From a virus, in the IMG/VR virus record IMGVR_UViG_3300002835_000027, positions 1-64,000 of that record: DNA of 64,000 nt; one strand, 5' to 3'. Below are positions 6,345 through 58,562 of this stretch, in pieces. The notes under the pieces were generated by a model. That model was not told the DNA's origin. It did no database searches and saw nothing but the letters and a program-made list of their open reading frames with translations. The translations under genes were made by a program, and so were the position numbers. Positions within the stretch are counted from its first letter, which is position 1, and each line of letters opens with the position of its first letter.

Positions 6345-7892
6345 ATGAGCGCATATAACGTATTTAATTCTTTTATTCAAGGGGCTATCGTTGGTGTAAC
6401 TAATGCTGCGATTGGTAAAGTTATACATCGTAGTATACCCCGAGATGGTCAAAATTTATTAGCCGCTCTTGGTGTTAGACGTCCTTTATTAGGGGTTAAA
6501 GACCCAGTTGCTAATACTTTGATAACAGCAGGATTAAATTCGGCGATTCATATTATCGGTGCGATCAATTCAGGTTACCTTAATTCTAATAATTATGGTA
6601 ATTATAATAGTTATAGTAGTAACGGAATTATGGGGCGCAACTTATCGTCGCAAAGCGGGTTATTAGCGTCCCATATTAACGGTTTAACTGATATGCAGGC
6701 TGGATTATTGGATAGATGGGAATATTTAACTCCCGGTTTATTCGATAGTTCAATCTCGCAACTTATTTTAAATGAAAGAGCTACCGGGACTATCGCTAAT
6801 GCAGATGGTATTCCTAGTTTAACGAGAAGTCCATATGAAGAACATAATAATATCAGTACACTTACTGGTGATGATTATTATGCATTCGATATAGTTAATT
6901 TTTATCCTAAAGCGAAATATACTTACTTAGTTCATTTTACTTTTTATCAAGAATACCAACCATCATTAGAAGATTCGTTTACTTTTTTAATTAAAAAATT
7001 CGATAAACCAAAAATAACAATTAACCACGAAGAAGTTAATTTTTATAATTTTAAATCGCATATACCTAAAAATATTACATACTCTCCAGTATCTTTAGAT
7101 ATACATGATGATATTAGAAATGAATCATTAAACTTTTTGGTTTCTTACTTGCGAAGAGTAAGCCCAATATTTAATCATGAGAGTTCTAAATTATTTGAAA
7201 CTAATGGTTTAGATTTTTCAAAGTCAACAGCATCGTATTCATTAGTAACTCAACAAAATAATGTTAATATTATAGAAAGTATTAAAGTTTATCATCTATA
7301 TAATGCTAATAGAACTATGGATATCCACGTTTTCAATAATCCTAAAATTCAAGAAATTAATTTAGGTGATTTTGATATGGCTGATGGTACTAATGGTAGC
7401 AATATCGTATTAGAATTTGTTTATGATAATTATTTCTTAAATACGGGAATTGCACCAGAAGTACCAACTAATGTAATATCAGTTTCAGAATTAGCACCAA
7501 ATCCACGGACCGAAGTTCTAACATCGAAAGGTGCTGAATTAACTGATGATTTAACTAACTTATTGAATGATGCGGGAGATCCATCATCTAAAACTAATGA
7601 TGATCCGGCTACTTTATCTAAAGCTAAAAATGGTGATTCCATTATTAATCCTATACCGAGTAAATTACCTGAACAAATTAATTTAGGTTTAGAAAATCCT
7701 AAATTTGCTAATTCATTACAATTAAATCAAATAAGTCAAGATACAAAAACTCCTAAACTTAATGTAGCTAGTGCAATTAATTCATTAAATAAAGAACCAT
7801 TAAAAACTCCAAATTCAATTACTGGTTATGATCAAAATACTAGTGCTGGGGCTCAGCGAATAACACCAAACTTCCAATCATACTTAGTTTAA
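6345..7892 (+). CDS. Baseplate tail-tube junction protein (gp48/gp54-like)
   Basis: This 515-residue protein begins with an Ala/Gly/Ile-rich segment (about 1-75). A central domain at about residues 175-370 has alternating hydrophobic strands such as Y-T-Y-L-V-H-F-T-F-Y, F-T-F-L-I-K-K-F-D-K-P-K-I and I-V-L-E-F-V-Y-D-N-Y, the layout of tube-fold initiator and cap proteins in T4 (gp54, gp48) that start the tube on the baseplate. The remaining 145 residues are polar and Asn/Pro/Ser rich. The ATG follows the tube gene stop by 2 bases, so the two are co-translated. The tube-fold call is inference from pattern and position; which of gp48 or gp54 it replaces cannot be decided. Confidence 0.6.
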   Translation: MSAYNVFNSFIQGAIVGVTNAAIGKVIHRSIPRDGQNLLAALGVRRPLLGVKDPVANTLITAGLNSAIHIIGAINSGYLNSNNYGNYNSYSSNGIMGRNLSSQSGLLASHINGLTDMQAGLLDRWEYLTPGLFDSSISQLILNERATGTIANADGIPSLTRSPYEEHNNISTLTGDDYYAFDIVNFYPKAKYTYLVHFTFYQEYQPSLEDSFTFLIKKFDKPKITINHEEVNFYNFKSHIPKNITYSPVSLDIHDDIRNESLNFLVSYLRRVSPIFNHESSKLFETNGLDFSKSTASYSLVTQQNNVNIIESIKVYHLYNANRTMDIHVFNNPKIQEINLGDFDMADGTNGSNIVLEFVYDNYFLNTGIAPEVPTNVISVSELAPNPRTEVLTSKGAELTDDLTNLLNDAGDPSSKTNDDPATLSKAKNGDSIINPIPSKLPEQINLGLENPKFANSLQLNQISQDTKTPKLNVASAINSLNKEPLKTPNSITGYDQNTSAGAQRITPNFQSYLV

Positions 7893-7894
7893 TT

Positions 7895-8332
7895 ATGGCA
7901 AGGTTTACTCAGGGTTTATATACGCCGAATAATCCCGAAAAATATATAGGTGATATTGAAAAAATTAGATTTATGTCTTCTTGGGAATTATCTATGCATA
8001 AATTTTTAGATAATAATACCAAAATAGTAAGATGGAGTTCGGAAACTATCGCTATTAAATATATTAAACCAACCGATCAAAAAATTCATAGATATTTTCC
8101 AGATTATTACGTTGAATATATTAATACTCAAAATCAATTAAAAAGATGTATTATCGAAGTTAAACCCCACGCACAAACTAAAGTATCCAGAGCTAAAAAA
8201 CCAAAAAATAAGTTATACGAAGATATTCAATATGCCGTAAATCAAGCAAAATGGCATGCATGCAAACATTTTTGCGATATGAATAACATCGAATTTAAGA
8301 TTATTACCGAAAAACAAATGTTTCGAGTCTAA
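7895..8332 (+). CDS. 4: Head completion nuclease (gp4-like)
   Basis: This 145-residue protein matches the length and motif order of T4 gp4 (150 residues), a TnsA-N-like nuclease fold that finishes packaged heads before tail joining. The restriction-endonuclease-like core is visible: S-S-W-E (E31), F-P-D-Y-Y-V-E-Y (D70) and C-I-I-E-V-K-P (E88, K90), a D-x(n)-E-x-K arrangement. A basic stretch (K-V-S-R-A-K-K-P-K-N-K) follows the active site. The gene begins 2 bases after the preceding stop and closes the tail tube transcription unit; a 130-base gap with a new late promoter follows. Confidence 0.85.
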   Translation: MARFTQGLYTPNNPEKYIGDIEKIRFMSSWELSMHKFLDNNTKIVRWSSETIAIKYIKPTDQKIHRYFPDYYVEYINTQNQLKRCIIEVKPHAQTKVSRAKKPKNKLYEDIQYAVNQAKWHACKHFCDMNNIEFKIITEKQMFRV

Positions 8333-8439: not shown

Positions 8440-8447
8440 TATAAATA
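8440..8447 (+). promoter_or_regulatory. T4-type late promoter for the terminase genes
   Basis: A perfect TATAAATA followed by TTTTTT lies 15 bases upstream of the small terminase ATG. If transcription starts where T4 late promoters do, the leader would be only a few bases, and no clear Shine-Dalgarno sequence is seen. The rest of the 130-base gap before it is plain AT-rich sequence. Confidence 0.75.
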
Positions 8448-8876: not shown

Positions 8877-10438
8877 GAAGAACCCAGCTTAAAATGCCGG
8901 GTGAGTTAAGTGAATATTCTGCGGAATCGGTTCAAAATTTAATTCAATGCGCAACGGACCCAATATTTTTCATATTAAATTTTTGTAAAATTACCCACCC
9001 GGCAAGAGGTATCGTTCCTTTTGAATTATATGAGTTCCAGCGAGAGATGGTGGAGTCATTCGCTTTTAATCATAATACTATTGTTTGTGCTAGTCGACAA
9101 GTAGGTAAATCACAAACATCATGTGCGTTCCTTTTATGGTATGCTATCTTTCATAAAAACAAAGAAATATTAATTGTATCTAATAAAGCAAAGAATGCTA
9201 AAGATATGGTTAATCGTATTGTGTTTATGTATGAAAATTTACCCAATTGGATAAAACCAGCTATTAATCCAACAAATTGGAATAAATTAGAAATTTCATT
9301 TGAAAATGGTAGTAGAATAGTATCAGAAAGTACGACTACGAATAGTGGTCGTGGTATGTCTATATCATTATTATTTTGTGATGAATTTGCTTTCATAAAT
9401 CCAACTATAGCAGAAGAATTTTGGACTAGTATACGCCCCACATTATCAACTGGCGGTAAATCGATTATAGCTAGTACACCAAATGGCGATGATAATTTAT
9501 ATGCCGAATTATGGCGCGGTGCGTCAGCTGGAACTAACGCATTTAATGCATTATTTGTTCCTTGGGATTCAGTTCCCGGTAGAGATGACGAATTTAGAAA
9601 AAAAGAAATCGCGATTATCGGACCTGAAAAATTTGCCCAGGAATATGAATGTGAGTTTATTTCAAATGATCCATTACTATTTAGTTCTAGATACGTAATT
9701 ACATATAAAACCGATCCATTACCAGAACCTGATGCTAGAGGTGTTGTTTGGTTCGATACTATAGACAGTAATAAAACTTATTTAATCGCCGTAGATCCAG
9801 CAACCGGTAGCGGTAGTGATTATACAGTCATTGTTTTATATAACTTCCCAGATCTACAGCAAATTGCCGAGTTTAGAAGCAATGTAATGTCATCACCCCT
9901 TGCTTATAATATTATTAAGTATATGCTTAAATTATTACAATCAAAAGGAGTTGAAAATGTTTACTGGAGCTTAGAAAATAATGGCGTAGGTGAAGGGATG
10001 TTAAGTCTACAATCAATTGATGAAAATCCAGTCGAAATCGGCGAATTACTTTCAGATAAAGGAAAACGGAGATTAGGATTTAATACCGGTAAAAATAAAC
10101 TTACTTTATGTATCACTTTTAAACAGATGTTCGAATCCGGTCGCATTAAAATCAAATCTAAAAATACAATAAACGAGATGAAAAACTTTGTTCGTAAAAA
10201 TGGATCATATTCCGCTAGGTCTGGGTCTACTGATGATACAATATCAGCTCATCTTATATTAATGCGCATGTTAGATGAATTAGTTCGATATGAAGATGAT
10301 GCATATGCACTAATGTATGAATCCGACTTCATCAATGAATTTAATGATGATACAAATTATATCGAACCTACACCAATAGTAACTAGTTCCGGTGATAGTG
10401 AAATGGACGTTTGGAGTTGGTACGAAAATCATCGATAA
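8873..10438 (+). CDS. terL: Terminase large subunit, packaging ATPase/nuclease (gp17-like)
   Basis: This is the DNA-packaging motor. The ATPase domain has Walker A at about residues 73-80 (A-S-R-Q-V-G-K-S), Walker B at 166-171 (L-L-F-C-D-E) and coupling motif S-I-I-A-S-T-P-N-G near 197-205. The RNase H-like nuclease domain has D308 (I-A-V-D-P-A-T-G), E368 (S-L-E-N-N-G-V) and the D454/D455 pair (S-T-D-D-T-I-S-A-H). All catalytic residues are therefore present. At 521 residues it is somewhat shorter than T4 gp17 (610), mainly at the N-terminus. Translation is probably coupled to terS. A stable hairpin follows the stop codon. Confidence 0.97.
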   Translation: MRRTQLKMPGELSEYSAESVQNLIQCATDPIFFILNFCKITHPARGIVPFELYEFQREMVESFAFNHNTIVCASRQVGKSQTSCAFLLWYAIFHKNKEILIVSNKAKNAKDMVNRIVFMYENLPNWIKPAINPTNWNKLEISFENGSRIVSESTTTNSGRGMSISLLFCDEFAFINPTIAEEFWTSIRPTLSTGGKSIIASTPNGDDNLYAELWRGASAGTNAFNALFVPWDSVPGRDDEFRKKEIAIIGPEKFAQEYECEFISNDPLLFSSRYVITYKTDPLPEPDARGVVWFDTIDSNKTYLIAVDPATGSGSDYTVIVLYNFPDLQQIAEFRSNVMSSPLAYNIIKYMLKLLQSKGVENVYWSLENNGVGEGMLSLQSIDENPVEIGELLSDKGKRRLGFNTGKNKLTLCITFKQMFESGRIKIKSKNTINEMKNFVRKNGSYSARSGSTDDTISAHLILMRMLDELVRYEDDAYALMYESDFINEFNDDTNYIEPTPIVTSSGDSEMDVWSWYENHR

Positions 10439-49895: not shown

Positions 49896-50588
49896 TTATG
49901 ATTTTTGAGGGATATAAAGATCGATACCTTTAGTATTAATTTTAATCATCCCTCGTTCGGTAATATAAAATTTCTTAGCATCGCAATCGGTAAATGCTGA
50001 TAATATAGATTTAATTGGGTACTTATAAACAAAATTAATATCTGAATTATCAACTAAATTATATGCGAAGCCTTCATTATACAGTAATTTATCATTATTT
50101 TCGTCCTGTAATTTATATTGAACCGAATTATTATCACACATAATCATAATAACGTCAGTTTTCATTGCATTTCGTCCTTTTTTAAGGATATTTACTAAAC
50201 TTTCTTCTATAGAAACTTCAAATAAATCATTTACTTTTGCACTAGTCGGTGCTTTAATTGCTAATGTATTAGCGCAACTATATTCTAAATTTAATCTATC
50301 AGTCGTGATAGATATCTTATCTGCATCCATATCCTCTGATTTAGTATGACATTCAATAATAGCATCATTCGAAACTAAATTTAATCTACTTAATAAAACA
50401 TCCATTCTATTAATACCAATCGATTTACATCCGATATTAATATCGCATTCTGTTAATATAGCGGCAGTGCGATCTTCATTGATCCCTCTAATAATATTAG
50501 GCTCTATAATAAATGATTCGATACTAAATAATTTAGCGACATGAACTGCATTTAATATTATATTTACTGTATTTTCGTCTAGTACCAT
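49896..50588 (-). CDS. 45: DNA polymerase sliding clamp (gp45-like)
   Basis: A 230-residue protein, nearly the length of T4 gp45 (228), located 9 bases after the polymerase gene. Two similar halves with alternating strands fit the clamp fold. S-I-G-I-N-R-M-D-V-L-L-S-R-L-N-L-V corresponds to the A-I-Y-D-L-N-G-F-L-G-I-L-S-L-V region of T4 gp45, and I-E-E-S-L-V-N-I-L-K-K-G-R to its second-half helix. The clamp tethers the polymerase and in T4 also activates gp55-dependent late transcription, and gp55 is encoded in this window. Sequence similarity is low, as is normal for clamps. Confidence 0.8.
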   Translation of the reverse strand: MVLDENTVNIILNAVHVAKLFSIESFIIEPNIIRGINEDRTAAILTECDINIGCKSIGINRMDVLLSRLNLVSNDAIIECHTKSEDMDADKISITTDRLNLEYSCANTLAIKAPTSAKVNDLFEVSIEESLVNILKKGRNAMKTDVIMIMCDNNSVQYKLQDENNDKLLYNEGFAYNLVDNSDINFVYKYPIKSILSAFTDCDAKKFYITERGMIKINTKGIDLYIPQKS

Positions 50589-50597
50589 CTCAATTCC

Positions 50598-53195
50598 TTA
50601 AAAATTAAATAAATCTTCTGCTTGTAATATCTGCATAGTCGGTGTTTTTAAATTGATTGCTTTTAAAATATTATCTAATGGTTTATCTACTAATCTATTA
50701 ATTTGCTGATCTTTATCTATTTTAGGAATAAAATCATCAATAAACCATTGTGGTAAATGTTCTAAATCAGTCGGTATCGCAATCGATTTAAATTTACCTA
50801 TTGCTCGTTTTAAATAATAAACTTTAATTTTAGATCCAGAACCAATCGGTTGATTTTCCGTATCCCCATACTGAACTAAATTAATATTAAAAAATATACT
50901 TGCTGCTGCGCCACCAGGAATATTAGCCTTACTACCTAAGTTTTCGTATAATTCAGTATACTCCTCTACTTTATTAACGCCTTTTGGTAATCCCATTTCT
51001 AATAAATTTTTAAAATCATTTAACTCTTCTTTGTATGCGACAATATCTTTTGCAATATCATTCCAATCTTCACCCAACAATAAACGTTTAATAAAACTAG
51101 TTAATTTTGCAGCTACTGGTTTAGGTAACGTAGTTTTTTTAATATCTAAACCCATCGTTTTCATTTTATCGCTAGCTTTACCTTCATTATCAACTACATG
51201 TATAGTATAACGTTTTTTCTCAACAAATATACTACTATCGCCGACAATTTCACGCCCGCATTTAATCATTTCATCAAATACTGGTTGACATAAAAAAGCT
51301 TGTTTCATAAATGGTTGATATGATTTATTAACTTGGTCTGCTACTGCATCAGCTATTTGAATCGCTTCGTCTTTATCGTTAGTAGGAACTACGAAATATG
51401 TACTATCAGTATCGCCGTAAATAACCGTTTCTGATTGGAATTTACCATTAAATATAGGACCAGTTAATGAAATATCATAAGTTAATGTATTCGGGTGATA
51501 ATATTCTTTACGTTCTGCAGTTAATAAATCTAATACACTTGATCTATCATTATGAGTAGAATTCGCCATATATTCTTCATCAAATGGATTATTAGCTAAG
51601 TATTTTTTACTATGTTCCTTATTTAATTCATCGATAACTTTGTTATTTTCATATAATGGAAAATCAATATTATAATTACCTTCGATTAATTCATTTACTT
51701 TACGACATTGATGTCTTAAAATCATTCGACCAGTACCAGTTACGGATTCGCCAGATTCTAACCTAAAGAACCTAAAGTTATAATTACTTAGACATCCATA
51801 AGTTGAATTTAATTTAATTTTAAAGATAAATTGAAATCGATCATAATGTTTAGCTTCTTCTAAGTATTTTGTATATAACGCCTGATCCTTACCTTTATAT
51901 TGTTCTGCTAATTTTTCACACTCTTTCTTTTTAGCTTGATATATTTTTCGCTGCGTATACCAAGTACCTAATAATGACGGGATAACACCCTCAAATTCTT
52001 GAGTATAAACCGTTCCGTATCCACTAACCGACCATTTCTTTTCTATAAAGAAATCAATCCACTCCGTAGTTAATCTAGTTTCATACGAACCATCTTCATA
52101 TCTTAATGTTAATTCGCATTCTTTATATTCAGCAATACAAGCCCAATCTTTAATATTATTAACGAATTGCCCGCGAATAGTTTCCGGGCTAATATTGATA
52201 GCTCGAATAGCCGATGGATATAATGAATTAATATCAATTGATGCAATCCATCTATGTAGTCCTCGTTGCGGAAATAAAACGTAAGCTCCTTGAATCGAGC
52301 CATCCGCAGTATCCCATCTATCAGGAACTCGCTTGTTTAATTCGTAATGACAATAGTTGATAATAGCATTATCAACCATTCGAACAGTTCCGAAAATATG
52401 AGTAAATTGATTAGTACTAGTATGAATCATATCATTAGCTAATCGGATATATTTTAATTTAGATTCGAATCCGGCTAGAATTTCGGTATCGCGAACGTTA
52501 TATCTTAAAAAATGATTAAAATCATTTACGTATAATTGTTCTAATGTTCCAGGATATGATAATTTCGCTAAATGCGGTAAAACATCTTCAGATATAACTT
52601 CTAATTTATAACTTTGCCTTTCAACAACTTCGAATTTTTTAAATAATTCGAGATAATCTAATGATACCCTACCGCTTAATTCTACTTGTAAATTTTCTTT
52701 ACCTTTAACGAAAACCGATCTATATATTGGAATATTCGCTTGAGGAAAACTCATTCTTTTTAAATGATGTTCACCTAAAACCATTTCAATTCGGCGGCAA
52801 ATATACGGATCATCGAAGCCCGAACTATTCCATCCGGATAATAAACTAACGTCTTCTATTTCATCTAAAAATGACAATAACATATCGGATTCATTTTTAA
52901 AAAAAATAATCTCAGTTAATTCAGATAACGAATTATCAAAATTATTTAAATCAAAACCTGGGGGTGGGACGGCAAATACTTTTGATTTAGTAAGCCATTC
53001 TTTATGCATCGATATTGCATTAATTGGGGCGTATGGATTTAATGGACTTGAAAAACCCGTCGGACCACTATATTCATATTTTGAATTAGTATACGAAATC
53101 CATTTTTTAGTTTGTTCGTCGTATATTTCAATTTGTTCTTGTTGTTTTTTAGGTAATTGTCGAATTTCACCCAAAGTGACTTCTAAGTTATCCAT
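50598..53195 (-). CDS. 43: DNA polymerase, family B (gp43), large C-terminal piece of a split gene
   Basis: An 865-residue protein carrying exonuclease motif II (G-W-N-S-S-G-F-D-D-P, 121-130), motif III (Y-N-V-R-D-T-E, 232-238) and the polymerase motifs A (D-I-N-S-L-Y-P-S, 321-328), B (K-L-N-S-T-Y-G, 461-467) and C (Y-G-D-T-D-S, 593-598). It ends in D-L-F-N-F, a clamp-binding-type tail. The N-terminal domain and exonuclease motif I (D-I-E) are missing; conserved sequence begins only at about residue 46 (T-G-F-S-S-P-L-N-P-Y-A-P-I-N). The missing part is encoded about 1 kb upstream as a separate 139-residue gene. The first 45 residues (V-T-L-G-E-I-R-Q-L-P-K-K-Q-Q-E-Q) have no counterpart in T4. 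A perfect-spaced early promoter lies just upstream. Confidence 0.95.
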   Translation of the reverse strand: MDNLEVTLGEIRQLPKKQQEQIEIYDEQTKKWISYTNSKYEYSGPTGFSSPLNPYAPINAISMHKEWLTKSKVFAVPPPGFDLNNFDNSLSELTEIIFFKNESDMLLSFLDEIEDVSLLSGWNSSGFDDPYICRRIEMVLGEHHLKRMSFPQANIPIYRSVFVKGKENLQVELSGRVSLDYLELFKKFEVVERQSYKLEVISEDVLPHLAKLSYPGTLEQLYVNDFNHFLRYNVRDTEILAGFESKLKYIRLANDMIHTSTNQFTHIFGTVRMVDNAIINYCHYELNKRVPDRWDTADGSIQGAYVLFPQRGLHRWIASIDINSLYPSAIRAINISPETIRGQFVNNIKDWACIAEYKECELTLRYEDGSYETRLTTEWIDFFIEKKWSVSGYGTVYTQEFEGVIPSLLGTWYTQRKIYQAKKKECEKLAEQYKGKDQALYTKYLEEAKHYDRFQFIFKIKLNSTYGCLSNYNFRFFRLESGESVTGTGRMILRHQCRKVNELIEGNYNIDFPLYENNKVIDELNKEHSKKYLANNPFDEEYMANSTHNDRSSVLDLLTAERKEYYHPNTLTYDISLTGPIFNGKFQSETVIYGDTDSTYFVVPTNDKDEAIQIADAVADQVNKSYQPFMKQAFLCQPVFDEMIKCGREIVGDSSIFVEKKRYTIHVVDNEGKASDKMKTMGLDIKKTTLPKPVAAKLTSFIKRLLLGEDWNDIAKDIVAYKEELNDFKNLLEMGLPKGVNKVEEYTELYENLGSKANIPGGAAASIFFNINLVQYGDTENQPIGSGSKIKVYYLKRAIGKFKSIAIPTDLEHLPQWFIDDFIPKIDKDQQINRLVDKPLDNILKAINLKTPTMQILQAEDLFNF

Positions 53196-53230
53196 AATAT
53201 ATTTTTAATTAGGTAAATTTAATTTATTAT

Positions 53231-53259
53231 ATTATACTTGAAATATTGATTAAAATCAA
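53231..53259 (-). promoter_or_regulatory. Early sigma70-type promoter for the large polymerase piece
   Basis: On the minus strand: TTGATT, 17-base spacer, TATAAT, 35 bases upstream of the ATG. It gives the polymerase piece its own early transcription independent of the N-terminal piece and of the late gene between them. Confidence 0.88.
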
Positions 53260-53265
53260 TTATTT

Positions 53266-53862
53266 TTAAACTGATGCTAATATTCTAGTTGCGTATGCAT
53301 TGCCGAATTTACAGGTCGTAGTTAACCAGGGGAATGAATAAAAATTAAATACTTCTTGTGTCGCTGTTGTTCTGATAGTAAGATACGGTCTATTCGGTGC
53401 ATTAGTTGGCGTATCTGGAGAGAACATTGTAGTATTAGTTCTAGTAAAAGATGCTGGATTAGGAACCGAAACATTAGATTTATATCCTTCACTATCCGGA
53501 GTAACTAACATTGGAGATAAACCAATACCACTTATCGGAACATCATAAGTAACATTTAATTTTAGATCTTTGTATATTTTAATATTATTAATGAAGTTTG
53601 CAACTTCATTCGCAGATTGTTGATTTTCAAAAACGGCGTATCGCCATATTTGATTATTAATATAACTATTAACACTACTATCAGAATATTCCGCCCATAC
53701 TACATATAAAACTGAATTTCGAACTATAGTGCCTTCATACGTCATATTATAATTATTACCAGTATAATCAATTACCATTGATGATAAAGTATTAGTATAC
53801 GTATAACCGGGCGGAGTATACACTAGATTTTGTGATATATTAGCCCTCAAATAAGTCGCCAT
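53266..53862 (-). CDS. Hypothetical beta-rich late protein between the two polymerase pieces
   Basis: A 198-residue protein, not recognised. It is rich in Thr, Asn, Tyr and Pro and in beta-strand patterns (V-L-Y-V-V-W-A-E-Y-S, L-N-V-T-Y-D-V-P-I-S-G), like phage structural proteins, and has no nuclease motif. It has its own late promoter element, while the genes on both sides have early ones. It is thus a late gene placed inside the split polymerase region, and may be part of the DNA whose arrival separated the pieces. Confidence 0.6.
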   Translation of the reverse strand: MATYLRANISQNLVYTPPGYTYTNTLSSMVIDYTGNNYNMTYEGTIVRNSVLYVVWAEYSDSSVNSYINNQIWRYAVFENQQSANEVANFINNIKIYKDLKLNVTYDVPISGIGLSPMLVTPDSEGYKSNVSVPNPASFTRTNTTMFSPDTPTNAPNRPYLTIRTTATQEVFNFYSFPWLTTTCKFGNAYATRILASV

Positions 53863-53892
53863 ACTACTCCGCCGATTGATTTAAATAAAAAT

Positions 53893-53900
53893 TATTTATC
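53893..53900 (-). promoter_or_regulatory. T4-type late promoter inside the split polymerase region
   Basis: Read on the minus strand this is GATAAATAATT, 30 bases upstream of the beta-rich protein ATG and overlapping the stop codon of the preceding gene. Confidence 0.6.
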
Positions 53901-54177
53901 GTTTCACTGGTTGGGATAATGCGTAAGCTTTAATATAATCCATAGGGTCATGATATGCATCATTAGTCCACCCCAATGCGGCGTATGCTTCGAATCTAAT
54001 AGCGTGGTGTTCATCTGCTAGTGCATCTTTAGTAAAACCTAATTTGCGATATGCATTCAATCGAACTACTGGATCAGAATCTTGTAATGATTTCGTTGGG
54101 TATCCATTTCTATTATAATGTTTTAATTTATTTTGACGGCCTGGAAATGTATCATATTCTTTCGGATCTAAAATCAT
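53896..54177 (-). CDS. Small HEAT-like repeat protein
   Basis: A 93-residue protein with two to three 22-residue repeats: D-P-V-V-R-L-N-A-Y-R-K-L-G-F-T-K-D-A, then H-H-A-I-R-F-E-A-Y-A-A-L-G-W-T-N-D-A, then D-Y-I-K-A-Y-A-L. This resembles short HEAT/VAR-like helical repeats used for protein binding. It starts 12 bases after the N-terminal polymerase piece in the same early unit. It could bridge or stabilise the split polymerase, but that is speculation. Confidence 0.6.
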   Translation of the reverse strand: MILDPKEYDTFPGRQNKLKHYNRNGYPTKSLQDSDPVVRLNAYRKLGFTKDALADEHHAIRFEAYAALGWTNDAYHDPMDYIKAYALSQPVKR

Positions 54178-54189
54178 TTTATTTTCCTA

Positions 54190-54609
54190 TTATTTTGGTT
54201 TCATTCTTATTTTAACAACAGTTTCATCGGGGAACGTCTGCGATTTATAATCAACCTCAATATCATATAACATAATATTAAGATCGGGCGCTGGTTGATT
54301 ATAATAATACTTTGATAATACTTTAGTATCTACGCCTATATCCGATTCGTATAATTTTTCACCTCGTTCTTCGATAAGCATTTTTTTAGCTGCTCGAAAA
54401 TCTCGAAGATTATCGAATTCGTATTTCTTTAATTTATCATTAAAAATACTGGTATGTTCACCTTCTTCATCATTCTTCATAAAAAATTCGAATATACCCG
54501 GATATTTTTTTAGTACGTGTTTATGATCGATACATTCCCAAACATAAACTTCATCACCTTCAACGAAACCTTTATCATTTCGTTTCATCGTTGCTGATAT
54601 ATAGCCCAT
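54190..54609 (-). CDS. 43: DNA polymerase, family B (gp43), small N-terminal piece of a split gene
   Basis: A 139-residue protein that corresponds to the N-terminal domain of gp43-type polymerases plus the first strand of the 3'-5' exonuclease. It starts G-Y-I-S-A-T-M-K-R-N, passes through Y-P-G-I-F-E-F-F-M-K-N, T-S-I-F-N-D-K-L and R-G-E-K-L-Y-E-S-D-I, and reaches A-P-D-L-N-I-M-L-Y-D-I-E-V-D-Y. D116 and E118 are the exonuclease motif I metal ligands, absent from the large piece. After Y-D-I-E-V-D-Y-K-S the sequence leaves the conserved path for 16 residues and stops. The two pieces must associate for proofreading. It is third in an early unit after the DsbA-like gene. Confidence 0.85.
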   Translation of the reverse strand: MGYISATMKRNDKGFVEGDEVYVWECIDHKHVLKKYPGIFEFFMKNDEEGEHTSIFNDKLKKYEFDNLRDFRAAKKMLIEERGEKLYESDIGVDTKVLSKYYYNQPAPDLNIMLYDIEVDYKSQTFPDETVVKIRMKPK

Positions 54610-55175: not shown

Positions 55176-58100
55176 TTACGGTCTACCAAAACCAGTAGCA
55201 TCTCGCTTACTATGAGTTCTAGTAGCTACTCCACCACCCGTTGTATTCCCCTCTACTGAATTAAAGGTACCGTCTCCATTATCTTTAACTACTATACCAC
55301 AATGTCCGATATTACCATCATTGTGGGTATAGAAAACAATATCGCCTGGTTGTAATTGGGTACTATTATTAATCCATTTACCTTGAGATTTAAATTGTGA
55401 GGCCATAGCCGAAGTTAGAGGAGTCATTGGAACTGCAGCACCGGCTCGTTTAGCACACCACATAACAAACGCAGCGCACCATGCTTTATGATTGGTACCT
55501 GCTTCAGCTCCGTATTTCGTATCATTATTTGGACCTTCTTTAAATCCAACTTCACCTAAAGCGATTTGAACTAATTTACTATTACCGCCCCCAGATGTCG
55601 GTTGTACTACGTCTGGATTAGGTCCGTCGGTTACGGTACCACCATATTGATGATACAATTTAATTATAGTTGATATTTTTGAACTCGGCATCGATGACCA
55701 TTGATTACCTAATGCATTTGATTTATGTGCAACTGCAGTGTTTATCTTACCGGCAATAACCAAATCAAGAATACCGATACTTTTTAATATTAATTTACAT
55801 ACCTTATCTTGACTAGCTTTACTAAAATCAGATTGCTTATGATCATTAAATGTAGTCCATACTATTTGATATCTACCTGAAGCTGTTGATTTTCTACCAT
55901 CTTTATAAACGAATGGTTGATATTTTAATGGATAACTTGGATCAAACGGATGATGGCTATAATCATCGAATGTTCTACGTCCACTTATCATAACTAATTG
56001 ATTATATCCATCATCGCCAGCTAAATCAGTTTCTAATTTACCTATAGTTTTCATAAATGCGGTTAAATTATCATTACTTTCTGGTGTACTATTTGGATCT
56101 CCGTTACTACCATTACCCAAGCCGCCATTACCACCACCGCCACCCCCACCAGCTCCTCCTTTTTTAGCCGGTTGATTACTATCTTGCATACCGTCTGAAG
56201 CTGGAACTGGACATAATGTTAATATTTGAGTAAATTCACCTTTACTAAATTTACTATCAACTTGATAAACATAATATGAATCTTGATACCATCCCGGCGT
56301 ACTATAATAATTTTCGGCAGATGCATCAGAACCGCCTTGCATATATGACGGTTTTGGAACTCGAACGTTCACTTTACAAGTCGGCATGGATTCCGAAGTT
56401 CCGTATTTGTTATTATGATCTTCGGTTACTTTTTTTGATTCTTCTGCTGATTTACTAGTTCCGTCGGCATTAACGTACGTATCATTAGGTGGCGTATAAC
56501 CAGCTAATAATAATGGATTACCGATTATTTTTAATGAATGTTTTTCTGCGGTTTGACCAATAATATCAGAAATTACTTTTCTAGATTGAAACAATGTTTG
56601 TGGATCCATTGATCCAGATCCAGCTCTAGTTGGATCCATTACTGGAGGTGATATCGGCGTATTAGCTAATCTATTAGATGGAACCGTACCTATCGTCGGA
56701 TTTATTGCTCCGGTTTGTTTTTTATCACCGTCCGTTTCTGCCGGATCAGTTATATCTTTTACATTATCATTTAATTGCTTATTAGTTATAACAGATTGTG
56801 GATGATAATATTTAAAAGCGTGACCTGAACTCCAAGAACCATTATAACTCATATCAAATTGCAATATATCTAAATTTTTACCAGTATAGATATAATCATA
56901 TTCTAAAACTGATGGTAATTTAGTATCATCAGTTGATACTTGATTATTATTTTGAGTATTGCTTACAGCTGGGTCTTCTTTACTTTGAGCTGCTACTTTA
57001 TCGTCGATTGATGCTTCGGTTTCCATAACCGTTTTTTCAATAGAATAAATTAACGTTCTAGCTTGTTTATCTTTATTAAAATACGTATATGATTTAATAA
57101 CTGGTTTATAAAAAACTTTATCGCCCGATATATTATATTCTTCTCGGATTTTTGGACATAAACTAATAATTTTTTGTATTGAATCTAATATATGTTCTCC
57201 GATCGAAGTATTTAATATTATATAATCGACTTCTTCATTTGCAACGTCGGTTTTATTATTTTTATTATTAGCTGGCGTTACTTTACCGCTATGTTTACCA
57301 CCACCTTGTTCCATTCTGGCGACGGCGTTAGTCATAGCCTCGTTAATTTTTGGATCTGTAAAGTCTACATTCTTATCATCTAATGAAACGCCAGTTTGTT
57401 TCGATAGAAATTGAGCATAAGCTTCTGGATTATTTTTACCGTCACCTTTTGGTGCATATCTATTAGTAAACGCCCTTAAACTATGAATACCATGTTTAGA
57501 TGAATATAAACCAATTTGTCTACTTAATGCCTTTCTTCCTTCTTCTGGGGTTGCATAAGATTGAAATCCTTTACCGTTAGTATTTCTTATATTACCGATA
57601 TTATTATTCGATGGGATATTATATCCGGCCATATCAGTTAATGATGGGCTTTTTGCAGTGGAATTCGCGGCATTAGGAACTTTATCCGGCGGTGTTGTAT
57701 TATTAGTTTTTGGTGATGTTTTTGGAGGAGCTACTCGCTGATCATCACTAACTTCTAAAACATATTCATTTGATTTATAAGCTTCGTCTAATTTAATTTC
57801 GCATAATTGATTTGGTTGGACCAATGAAGCTGATTTATTTTCTTCTGATCGTTTATTAACCGACTCTTGTAATTTTTGTAATGCGTCGGATAATAATGCG
57901 GTTGATTTATATGAAACCCCACCAGTATTCATCGATGCGGAACTATTAGCTGCGTCGTTAAATAAACTAGCGCATTTTAATGAATAACTAGTTCCCTTAT
58001 TTGATAAGGTCATCGACATAGTAGTTATTTCAAATGGGATTACATTTATACTATCAATTACGTGGGGTTGATTATTATTATAATCATCTAAATAACCGAC

Positions 58101-58562
58101 AAAAATAATTTTTAATCCGAAAGTTAAACTTTCAATTGCCATTGATATATCAGCGCCGTCACTAAGTCCGGCAGATGATTGTGCAGCTATTAATAATATA
58201 GCTGGGAAATCCATAGTAAACGGTTCTAAAATGGACATATTTAGAAGCGTCATAACTTCTAAACTAAAACCTAAGCTTTTCTCGGGTGTATTTTGAAATA
58301 CGTGAGAAATCTCCAAATCCACAATACTAAAATCGGCATCTTGCATTGAATTGTAAATAACCGAATATTTGTTCCCGGCTGATGTTGTTTTTGCAGTATA
58401 TCTATCTGCTGCATTATCTGGGTGTGAATATCTACTTAAATCAGATTTATCTTCTGTATTATCGATATCAGCGAATGTGGTTTCAACTGATGGGCCGGCT
58501 AATAAAATAAAATGATATGAGTAGCTTCTATATTTGTGGAGTGGATTTGGTGTAGCTGACAT
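55176..58562 (-). CDS. Baseplate hub protein with three peptidoglycan-hydrolase domains
   Basis: An 1,128-residue multidomain protein. Residues 1-200 (Y-S-Y-H-F-I-L-L-A-G-P-S-V) resemble hub proteins of T4-like phages. Domain 1 (about 318-421) has N-I-G-N-I-R-N, A-T-P-E-E-G-R-K-A-L and R-Y-A-P-K-G-D-G-K-N, a lytic-transglycosylase-type module. Domain 2 (about 832-978) matches the lambda R/GH104 family: E844, F-D-D-Y-S-H-H-P, S-T-A-S-G-R-Y-Q-I and A-G-K-I-N-T-A-V. Domain 3 (about 995-1128) is a CHAP amidase with C1029 (W-C-A-A-F), H1087 (I-G-H-C-G) and E1104. A Gly-rich linker precedes domain 2. It would open the wall during DNA entry. It is the last gene of a late baseplate unit. Confidence 0.85.
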   Translation of the reverse strand: MSATPNPLHKYRSYSYHFILLAGPSVETTFADIDNTEDKSDLSRYSHPDNAADRYTAKTTSAGNKYSVIYNSMQDADFSIVDLEISHVFQNTPEKSLGFSLEVMTLLNMSILEPFTMDFPAILLIAAQSSAGLSDGADISMAIESLTFGLKIIFVGYLDDYNNNQPHVIDSINVIPFEITTMSMTLSNKGTSYSLKCASLFNDAANSSASMNTGGVSYKSTALLSDALQKLQESVNKRSEENKSASLVQPNQLCEIKLDEAYKSNEYVLEVSDDQRVAPPKTSPKTNNTTPPDKVPNAANSTAKSPSLTDMAGYNIPSNNNIGNIRNTNGKGFQSYATPEEGRKALSRQIGLYSSKHGIHSLRAFTNRYAPKGDGKNNPEAYAQFLSKQTGVSLDDKNVDFTDPKINEAMTNAVARMEQGGGKHSGKVTPANNKNNKTDVANEEVDYIILNTSIGEHILDSIQKIISLCPKIREEYNISGDKVFYKPVIKSYTYFNKDKQARTLIYSIEKTVMETEASIDDKVAAQSKEDPAVSNTQNNNQVSTDDTKLPSVLEYDYIYTGKNLDILQFDMSYNGSWSSGHAFKYYHPQSVITNKQLNDNVKDITDPAETDGDKKQTGAINPTIGTVPSNRLANTPISPPVMDPTRAGSGSMDPQTLFQSRKVISDIIGQTAEKHSLKIIGNPLLLAGYTPPNDTYVNADGTSKSAEESKKVTEDHNNKYGTSESMPTCKVNVRVPKPSYMQGGSDASAENYYSTPGWYQDSYYVYQVDSKFSKGEFTQILTLCPVPASDGMQDSNQPAKKGGAGGGGGGGNGGLGNGSNGDPNSTPESNDNLTAFMKTIGKLETDLAGDDGYNQLVMISGRRTFDDYSHHPFDPSYPLKYQPFVYKDGRKSTASGRYQIVWTTFNDHKQSDFSKASQDKVCKLILKSIGILDLVIAGKINTAVAHKSNALGNQWSSMPSSKISTIIKLYHQYGGTVTDGPNPDVVQPTSGGGNSKLVQIALGEVGFKEGPNNDTKYGAEAGTNHKAWCAAFVMWCAKRAGAAVPMTPLTSAMASQFKSQGKWINNSTQLQPGDIVFYTHNDGNIGHCGIVVKDNGDGTFNSVEGNTTGGGVATRTHSKRDATGFGRP

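Follow-up and report, generated by a model that had tools for sequence, protein, structure and literature searches.

A gp43-type DNA polymerase encoded in two genes, with its exonuclease catalytic residues divided between them, in a T4-like phage

The two polymerase genes

The window studied here, a 64,000-nucleotide stretch spanning positions 1 to 64,000 of the IMG/VR record IMGVR_UViG_3300002835_000027, belongs to a large T4-like virus that infects bacteria, and our subject is its family-B, gp43-type DNA polymerase. The single polypeptide usual for this type of enzyme is here replaced by two open reading frames (ORFs), with no intron found between them: a small gene of 139 amino acids (aa) and a large gene of 865 aa. 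An earlier note on this DNA had described four ORFs at the locus, and these proved exact and all on the minus strand (Table 1), with the two pieces lying about 1 kb apart and separated by two ORFs unrelated to the polymerase.

Sequence comparison identifies both pieces. The small ORF matches intact gp43s of jumbo phages over their N-terminal ~125 residues only (tblastn; 40.5% identity and E 2e-15 with XacN1, 37.7% with RAS14), and residues 33-865 of the large ORF match XacN1 with 43.7% identity. Both parts form one 882-aa gene in XacN1, a Xanthomonas phage, and RAS14, a Stenotrophomonas phage. The large ORF carries Pfam DNA_pol_B (PF00136; 1.9e-33) and the motif II/III portion of DNA_pol_B_exo1 (6.7e-12), and its polymerase motifs A (D321-P327, DINSLYPS), B (KLNSTYG) and C (YGDTDS) are intact. 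Every exonuclease and polymerase catalytic residue is present once, divided over the two pieces, and no DxE motif occurs in the head of the large piece. The alignments thus confirm the proposal that the exonuclease catalytic residues of this polymerase are shared out between two genes, the small one being the gp43 N-terminal domain with motif I and the large one the remainder of gp43.

The same arrangement is found at 100% identity in two further IMG/VR assemblies, which argues against misassembly. Across the whole 133-kb record, the split polymerase is the sole protein with a PF00136 domain. The two ORFs in the gap are orphans: a search for relatives found them in the same phage only, each as a single copy.

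Table 1. Positions of the features discussed, numbered from the first nucleotide of the window.
Feature	Positions	Strand	Basis
139-aa small piece: N-terminal domain of gp43 with exonuclease motif I	54190..54609	-	tblastn to intact gp43s (residues 1-~126), alignments
Exonuclease motif I codons D116-I117-E118 (within YDIEVDY)	54256..54264	-	aligned to invariant DIE of intact relatives
Small-piece C-terminal tail QTFPDETVVKIRMKPK, first part of the module	54193..54240	-	aligns to contiguous module of L151, L207, L212 and L214
Gap between the pieces	53196..54189	-	no trace of intron, intein or homing endonuclease
93-aa ORF, orphan	53896..54177	-	Pfam HEAT_2 5e-5, below cut-off: weak HEAT-repeat similarity
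198-aa ORF, orphan	53266..53862	-	no credible family
Promoter-like TTGATT-17-TATAAT, 36 nt before the large ORF	53231..53259	-	consensus match only
865-aa large piece: motifs II/III of the exonuclease, motifs A, B and C of the polymerase	50598..53195	-	Pfam, PHROGs, tblastn
Large-piece N-terminal head (its residues 1-46), carrying the second part of the module	53058..53195	-	aligns to unsplit modules and to the heads found in split L126 and L014/L155
Exonuclease II aspartate D128 (GWNSSGFDD)	52812..52814	-	invariant column
Exonuclease III aspartate D236 (YNVRDTE)	52488..52490	-	invariant column, YNVRD
Sliding clamp (gp45-like), conserved neighbour	49896..50588	-	PHROG 223, 7e-5; gene order kept in relatives

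The insertion module and the lineages in which it is split

Searching IMG/VR with the pattern GFSSPxNPYA, together with follow-up searches, uncovered relatives that explain the extra ends of the two proteins. Seven unsplit lineages, which we designate L151, L207 (=L128), L212 (=L119), L174/L132, L168, L214 and the divergent L254, carry a contiguous insertion of ~55-60 aa between motif I (DIEVDY) and GFSSP, hereafter the module. The tail QTFPDETVVKIRMKPK of the small piece and the head MDNLEVTLGEIRQLPKKQQEQIEIYDEQTKKWISYTNSKYEYSGPT of the large piece cover both halves of this module with essentially no residue missing in the alignment. The earlier note had offered two readings of the extra ends. 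One of them, that the split cuts an exonuclease insertion specific to the lineage, is borne out by seven unsplit relatives in which the insertion is whole. A resemblance of the head to a degenerate second copy of motif I (ISYTNSKYEY) was rejected, as the unsplit relatives identify this stretch as the end of the module. The string 'VRIRYNGKEKDISVGELRAI...EVFDEYTEKW' had looked intein-like, and an intein origin of the module was discarded when a profile comparison with the inteins of the same phages gave a probability of 0.2%. Pfam, NCBIfam and PDB returned only short kelch-like matches to the module (EVYD..KKW), which we treated as chance. In L254 (6261-6475) the insertion is divergent, of similar length and at the same exonuclease position, and its homology to the module is uncertain.

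Our census comprised 145 distinct loci (≤95% identity), 7 with the module intact, 3 with the module split and 135 with neither module nor split. A script had sorted the inserts into 128 short and 14 long ones; half of the long ones (7/14) are visibly without the module, which its pattern missed. All three splits occur in polymerases that bear the module (on the script counts, Fisher p is about 3e-4, uncorrected for relatedness and search bias). A further candidate, L251/L252 with a 1,050-nt gap, was rejected as a split since it has an intein at exonuclease II.

Two other, distant lineages, L126/L142 and L014/L155, have their break at the hairpin position seen in the window, and two of the three gaps contain homing genes. 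The only ORF in the L126 gap, 332 aa long, fills it and has an HNH motif (Pfam HNH, E 0.0012, narrowly short of the cut-off). It begins 22 nt past the stop of the small gene and overlaps the start of the large one by 17 nt. A frameshifted homologue of this gene occupies the L014 gap. The two endonucleases are homologous (E 7e-15), the remaining polymerase sequence being only 43% identical, and relatives of the gap endonuclease are common in T4-like phages, many of them annotated as homing endonucleases. Close to the endonuclease insertion, motif I of the recently split L126 (3521-3949) reads DIEVFY instead of DIEVDY.

In a maximum-likelihood tree of 45 polymerases, built with the module left out, each split form has an unsplit sister: the window pairs with L212 (98.8/100), L208 with L207 (96.1/99) and L215 with L214 (100/100). 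Because every split form pairs in this way, the simplest history is that the split arose three times independently. Close relatives with an unsplit allele, as looked for in a gene split by a homing endonuclease, are L212, L207, L151 and L214. One pair comes from a single metagenome, the split L208 (3300042292_000665) and the unsplit L207 (3300042292_001106). The two share 91% identity outside the module, against 38% within it, and at the nucleotide level only the sequence on either side of the endonuclease falls to 50-55% identity. This is the pattern expected of co-conversion during homing, and relaxed constraint after the split could add to the divergence. No clear donor of the replaced L208 tract emerged, the best match being the window (43%), barely above L151 (42%).

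Predicted structure and competing explanations

We modelled the N-terminal and exonuclease domains of the unsplit sister L212 with AlphaFold2 (440 aa, 38 sequences). The model has a predicted local distance difference test (pLDDT) score of 93.1, and values within the module are 85-95. It matches RB69 gp43 (E 4e-26, template modelling score 0.73), the gp43 fold thus being seen on the sister protein. Here the module consists of strands 129-134 and 140-144, two short helices, and strands 159-163 and 168-171. The window break maps to the hairpin loop at 135-139, with strand 129-134 on the small piece and strand 140-144 on the large one. Because the two pieces part at the turn of a β-hairpin of the insertion, the other reading of the extra ends in the earlier note, an association interface, would follow as a natural consequence of the predicted structure. 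Modelled alone, the large piece of the window reaches a pLDDT of 82 with most of the polymerase domain good; its head is of low confidence (47-71) and the motif I strand, the first of the exonuclease sheet, is absent. The models fit an arrangement in which the two pieces pair by way of the hairpin and the sheet of the exonuclease. The large piece also carries a low-confidence insertion of ~60 aa before motif C (window 51440-51650, residues ~516-585), which is found in L126 and absent from XacN1.

A unifying model is a two-subunit gp43-type replicative polymerase with its proofreading site across the interface, split by recurrent homing-endonuclease insertion, the endonuclease here having apparently been lost; we give this model a probability of about 0.78. 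The small subunit would contribute the N-terminal domain together with the motif I strand of the exonuclease (D116/E118), and the large subunit would supply exonuclease motifs II/III, palm, fingers and thumb. Pairing via the hairpin and the exonuclease sheet would bring the two together and restore the proofreading site across their interface. The split itself was most likely made by insertion of a free-standing HNH homing endonuclease gene into the module, as is still seen in two related lineages. We infer that the pieces physically assemble, that they are active, and that a homing gene was at the origin of the split in this phage. On this last point the window is read by analogy, since its own gap has no endonuclease trace; the endonuclease that would have made the split was probably later lost or replaced by the two orphan ORFs.

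Several observations weigh against this model. The gap of the window holds neither a homing endonuclease nor a recognisable remnant, a search at E≤10 having given no credible similarity to HNH proteins. As a fragment of 133 kb, the record leaves room for a second polymerase elsewhere in the genome. On inspection of the sequence, the large ORF has no obvious Shine-Dalgarno. Synonymous divergence (dS) is saturated, making ratios of nonsynonymous to synonymous divergence (dN/dS) indicative only. Finally, the confidence gap between the two structural models may partly reflect their different alignments.

The ALTERNATIVES are an intron, a split intein, a remnant gene, another kind of insertion and an ancient split with re-fusions, and none of them fits the data as well. 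The two pieces could be joined at the RNA or protein level, the gap being a self-splicing intron or the ends a split intein, and such elements do occur in related polymerases: L155 has a group I intron at motif B, and inteins are present at exonuclease II and at motif C. We regard this as most improbable. An Rfam search of the window gap found no intron family and no ribozyme core even at E≤5, the tight packing of the L126 endonuclease ORF between its two polymerase genes leaves little room for a ribozyme, and tail plus head equal a module that is retained in unsplit proteins, leaving nothing to excise. A split intein also lacks its hallmarks, with no C-terminal HN-C/S/T, no Hint blocks and the 0.2% profile probability given above. 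It is very unlikely, too, that the small gene is a dying remnant and that the large piece polymerises alone without proofreading. Exonuclease-deficient family-B polymerases can still synthesise DNA, and the large piece keeps all polymerase motifs; yet it also keeps exonuclease II/III catalytic residues that would be useless alone, and it misses the first strand of the exonuclease sheet. The small gene, for its part, retains motif I and a full open frame, and its product is 59% identical to L151, compared with 49% for the unsplit L212, a closeness which argues that it is not decaying. The small gene of L208 differs from the matching part of L207 with a dN of 0.086 and saturated dS.

Two further explanations leave the two genes in place and differ in how the split came about. 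Direct insertion of the orphan 93- and 198-aa genes, or of some other element, without any homing endonuclease would give the same subunit assembly. It agrees with a gap that bears no endonuclease trace and with two ORFs unique to this phage, and we consider it possible, if doubtful: the insertion point lies within a few codons of the place where HNH genes entered in two other lineages, and an independent coincidence of this kind is unlikely. That the gene was split once, long ago, and then re-fused repeatedly in the unsplit relatives is unlikely as well. All three split forms do share homologous tails and heads, but an unsplit sister for each of them would call for several exact re-fusions against three splits, and the L208 tract looks recently replaced relative to L207. 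Returning to the two-subunit polymerase split by homing, a more speculative extension, to which we would give low odds, is that the module is a recurrent, tolerated splitting point that makes the gp43 proofreading domain a separable subunit, so that proofreading could in principle be varied by the dose or binding of the small subunit.

Neighbouring elements and known split enzymes

The gene order hub-g92-pol-clamp-g95-RNaseH is kept in most close relatives. Just upstream of the polymerase genes (window 55176-58562) lies the gene of an 1128-aa protein with endolysin and baseplate-hub similarity, which adjoins the polymerase in several relatives. The promoters proposed for the locus fared less well than its genes. 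A 17-spaced TATAAT had been claimed before each piece; one does precede the large ORF, and none directly precedes the small ORF, the nearest on its strand (55173-55145) lying upstream of other genes. Such sites are no commoner in the window than in shuffled sequence (35 found, 37.7 ± 5.8 expected), which leaves both claims weak. The late promoter reported before the 198-aa gene was not supported: it reads GATAAATA, one mismatch from the T4 late promoter core TATAAATA, and lies outside the exact copies of that core. These are strongly depleted in the window, with 9 found (for example at 8440, 28216, 40776 and 48237) and 36.6 expected, and several directly precede gene starts, which suggests that they are real T4-type late promoters.

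Mobile elements were noticed elsewhere in the related polymerases. Inteins lie at exonuclease motif II, between GWN and C, in L207 (about 6790-8140), L251 (6570-7600) and L259, and at motif C in L003, L126, L212, L214, L014 and L195. The intron at motif B of L155 is a group I intron-like sequence (9154-9358; 31 bits, below the Rfam cut-off) with an endonuclease ORF, and ORF breaks near its polymerase position also occur in L200, L214, L217 and L231.

Split gp43 genes are known from Aeromonas T4-like phages, as the earlier note had stated. In phages 25 and 44RR, gp43 is encoded as 43A/43B, the phage 25 split is associated with a seg homing endonuclease, and co-purification of the phage 25 pieces, with polymerase activity, has been reported (PMC2988022). 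The window and these phages have in common a gp43-type polymerase in two genes. However, the 43A/43B break interrupts the polymerase domain at a point near residue 430 of the window large piece (taking PHROG 2062 and 1918 as 43A/43B), whereas that of the window lies inside the exonuclease domain, between motifs I and II, and cuts the proofreading site in two. Agrobacterium jumbo phage Atu_ph07 also has a related gp43-type polymerase in two adjacent genes, but its first gene (565 aa) contains motifs I-III and motif A, placing that break, unlike ours, in the polymerase domain. The closest annotated relative of both pieces, the XacN1 DNA polymerase (BBA65491; about 40-44% identical), is a single chain without the module. 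A split family-A DNA polymerase is described in MEP401/MEP402 (PMC10580990), where a phage replicative polymerase is likewise encoded as two ORFs with a small ORF between them; there, however, the exonuclease domain is whole in the first ORF.

Outside the polymerases, the ribonucleotide reductase of Aeromonas phage Aeh1 is split into NrdA-a and NrdA-b by mobE (PMC2988022, PMC3653736). It offers a parallel in that an essential replication gene is cut by a free-standing homing endonuclease without an intron and its product is functional. Apart from the enzyme concerned, the difference lies in the tails: those of Aeh1 NrdA derive from the insertion and reportedly drive assembly, whereas those of the window come from a module that pre-existed in unsplit relatives. 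Among the matches listed from 50,697 annotated phage records, and in the open literature (subscription papers being mostly outside it), we found neither the module nor the break, consistent with the suspicion in the earlier note that this break position was undescribed. Both the position and its recurrence appear to be new.

The window thus presents a natural replicative polymerase whose proofreading site is expected to form only once the products of two genes come together, and it allows one to ask how proofreading assembles and whether it is separable from synthesis in a living phage. Three splits at one hairpin, together with 91%-identical alleles in one metagenome, make a clean case of homing endonucleases making a heterodimer. 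Our data suggest that a pre-existing insertion may make such splits tolerable, and split points of this kind could guide the design of two-part polymerases.

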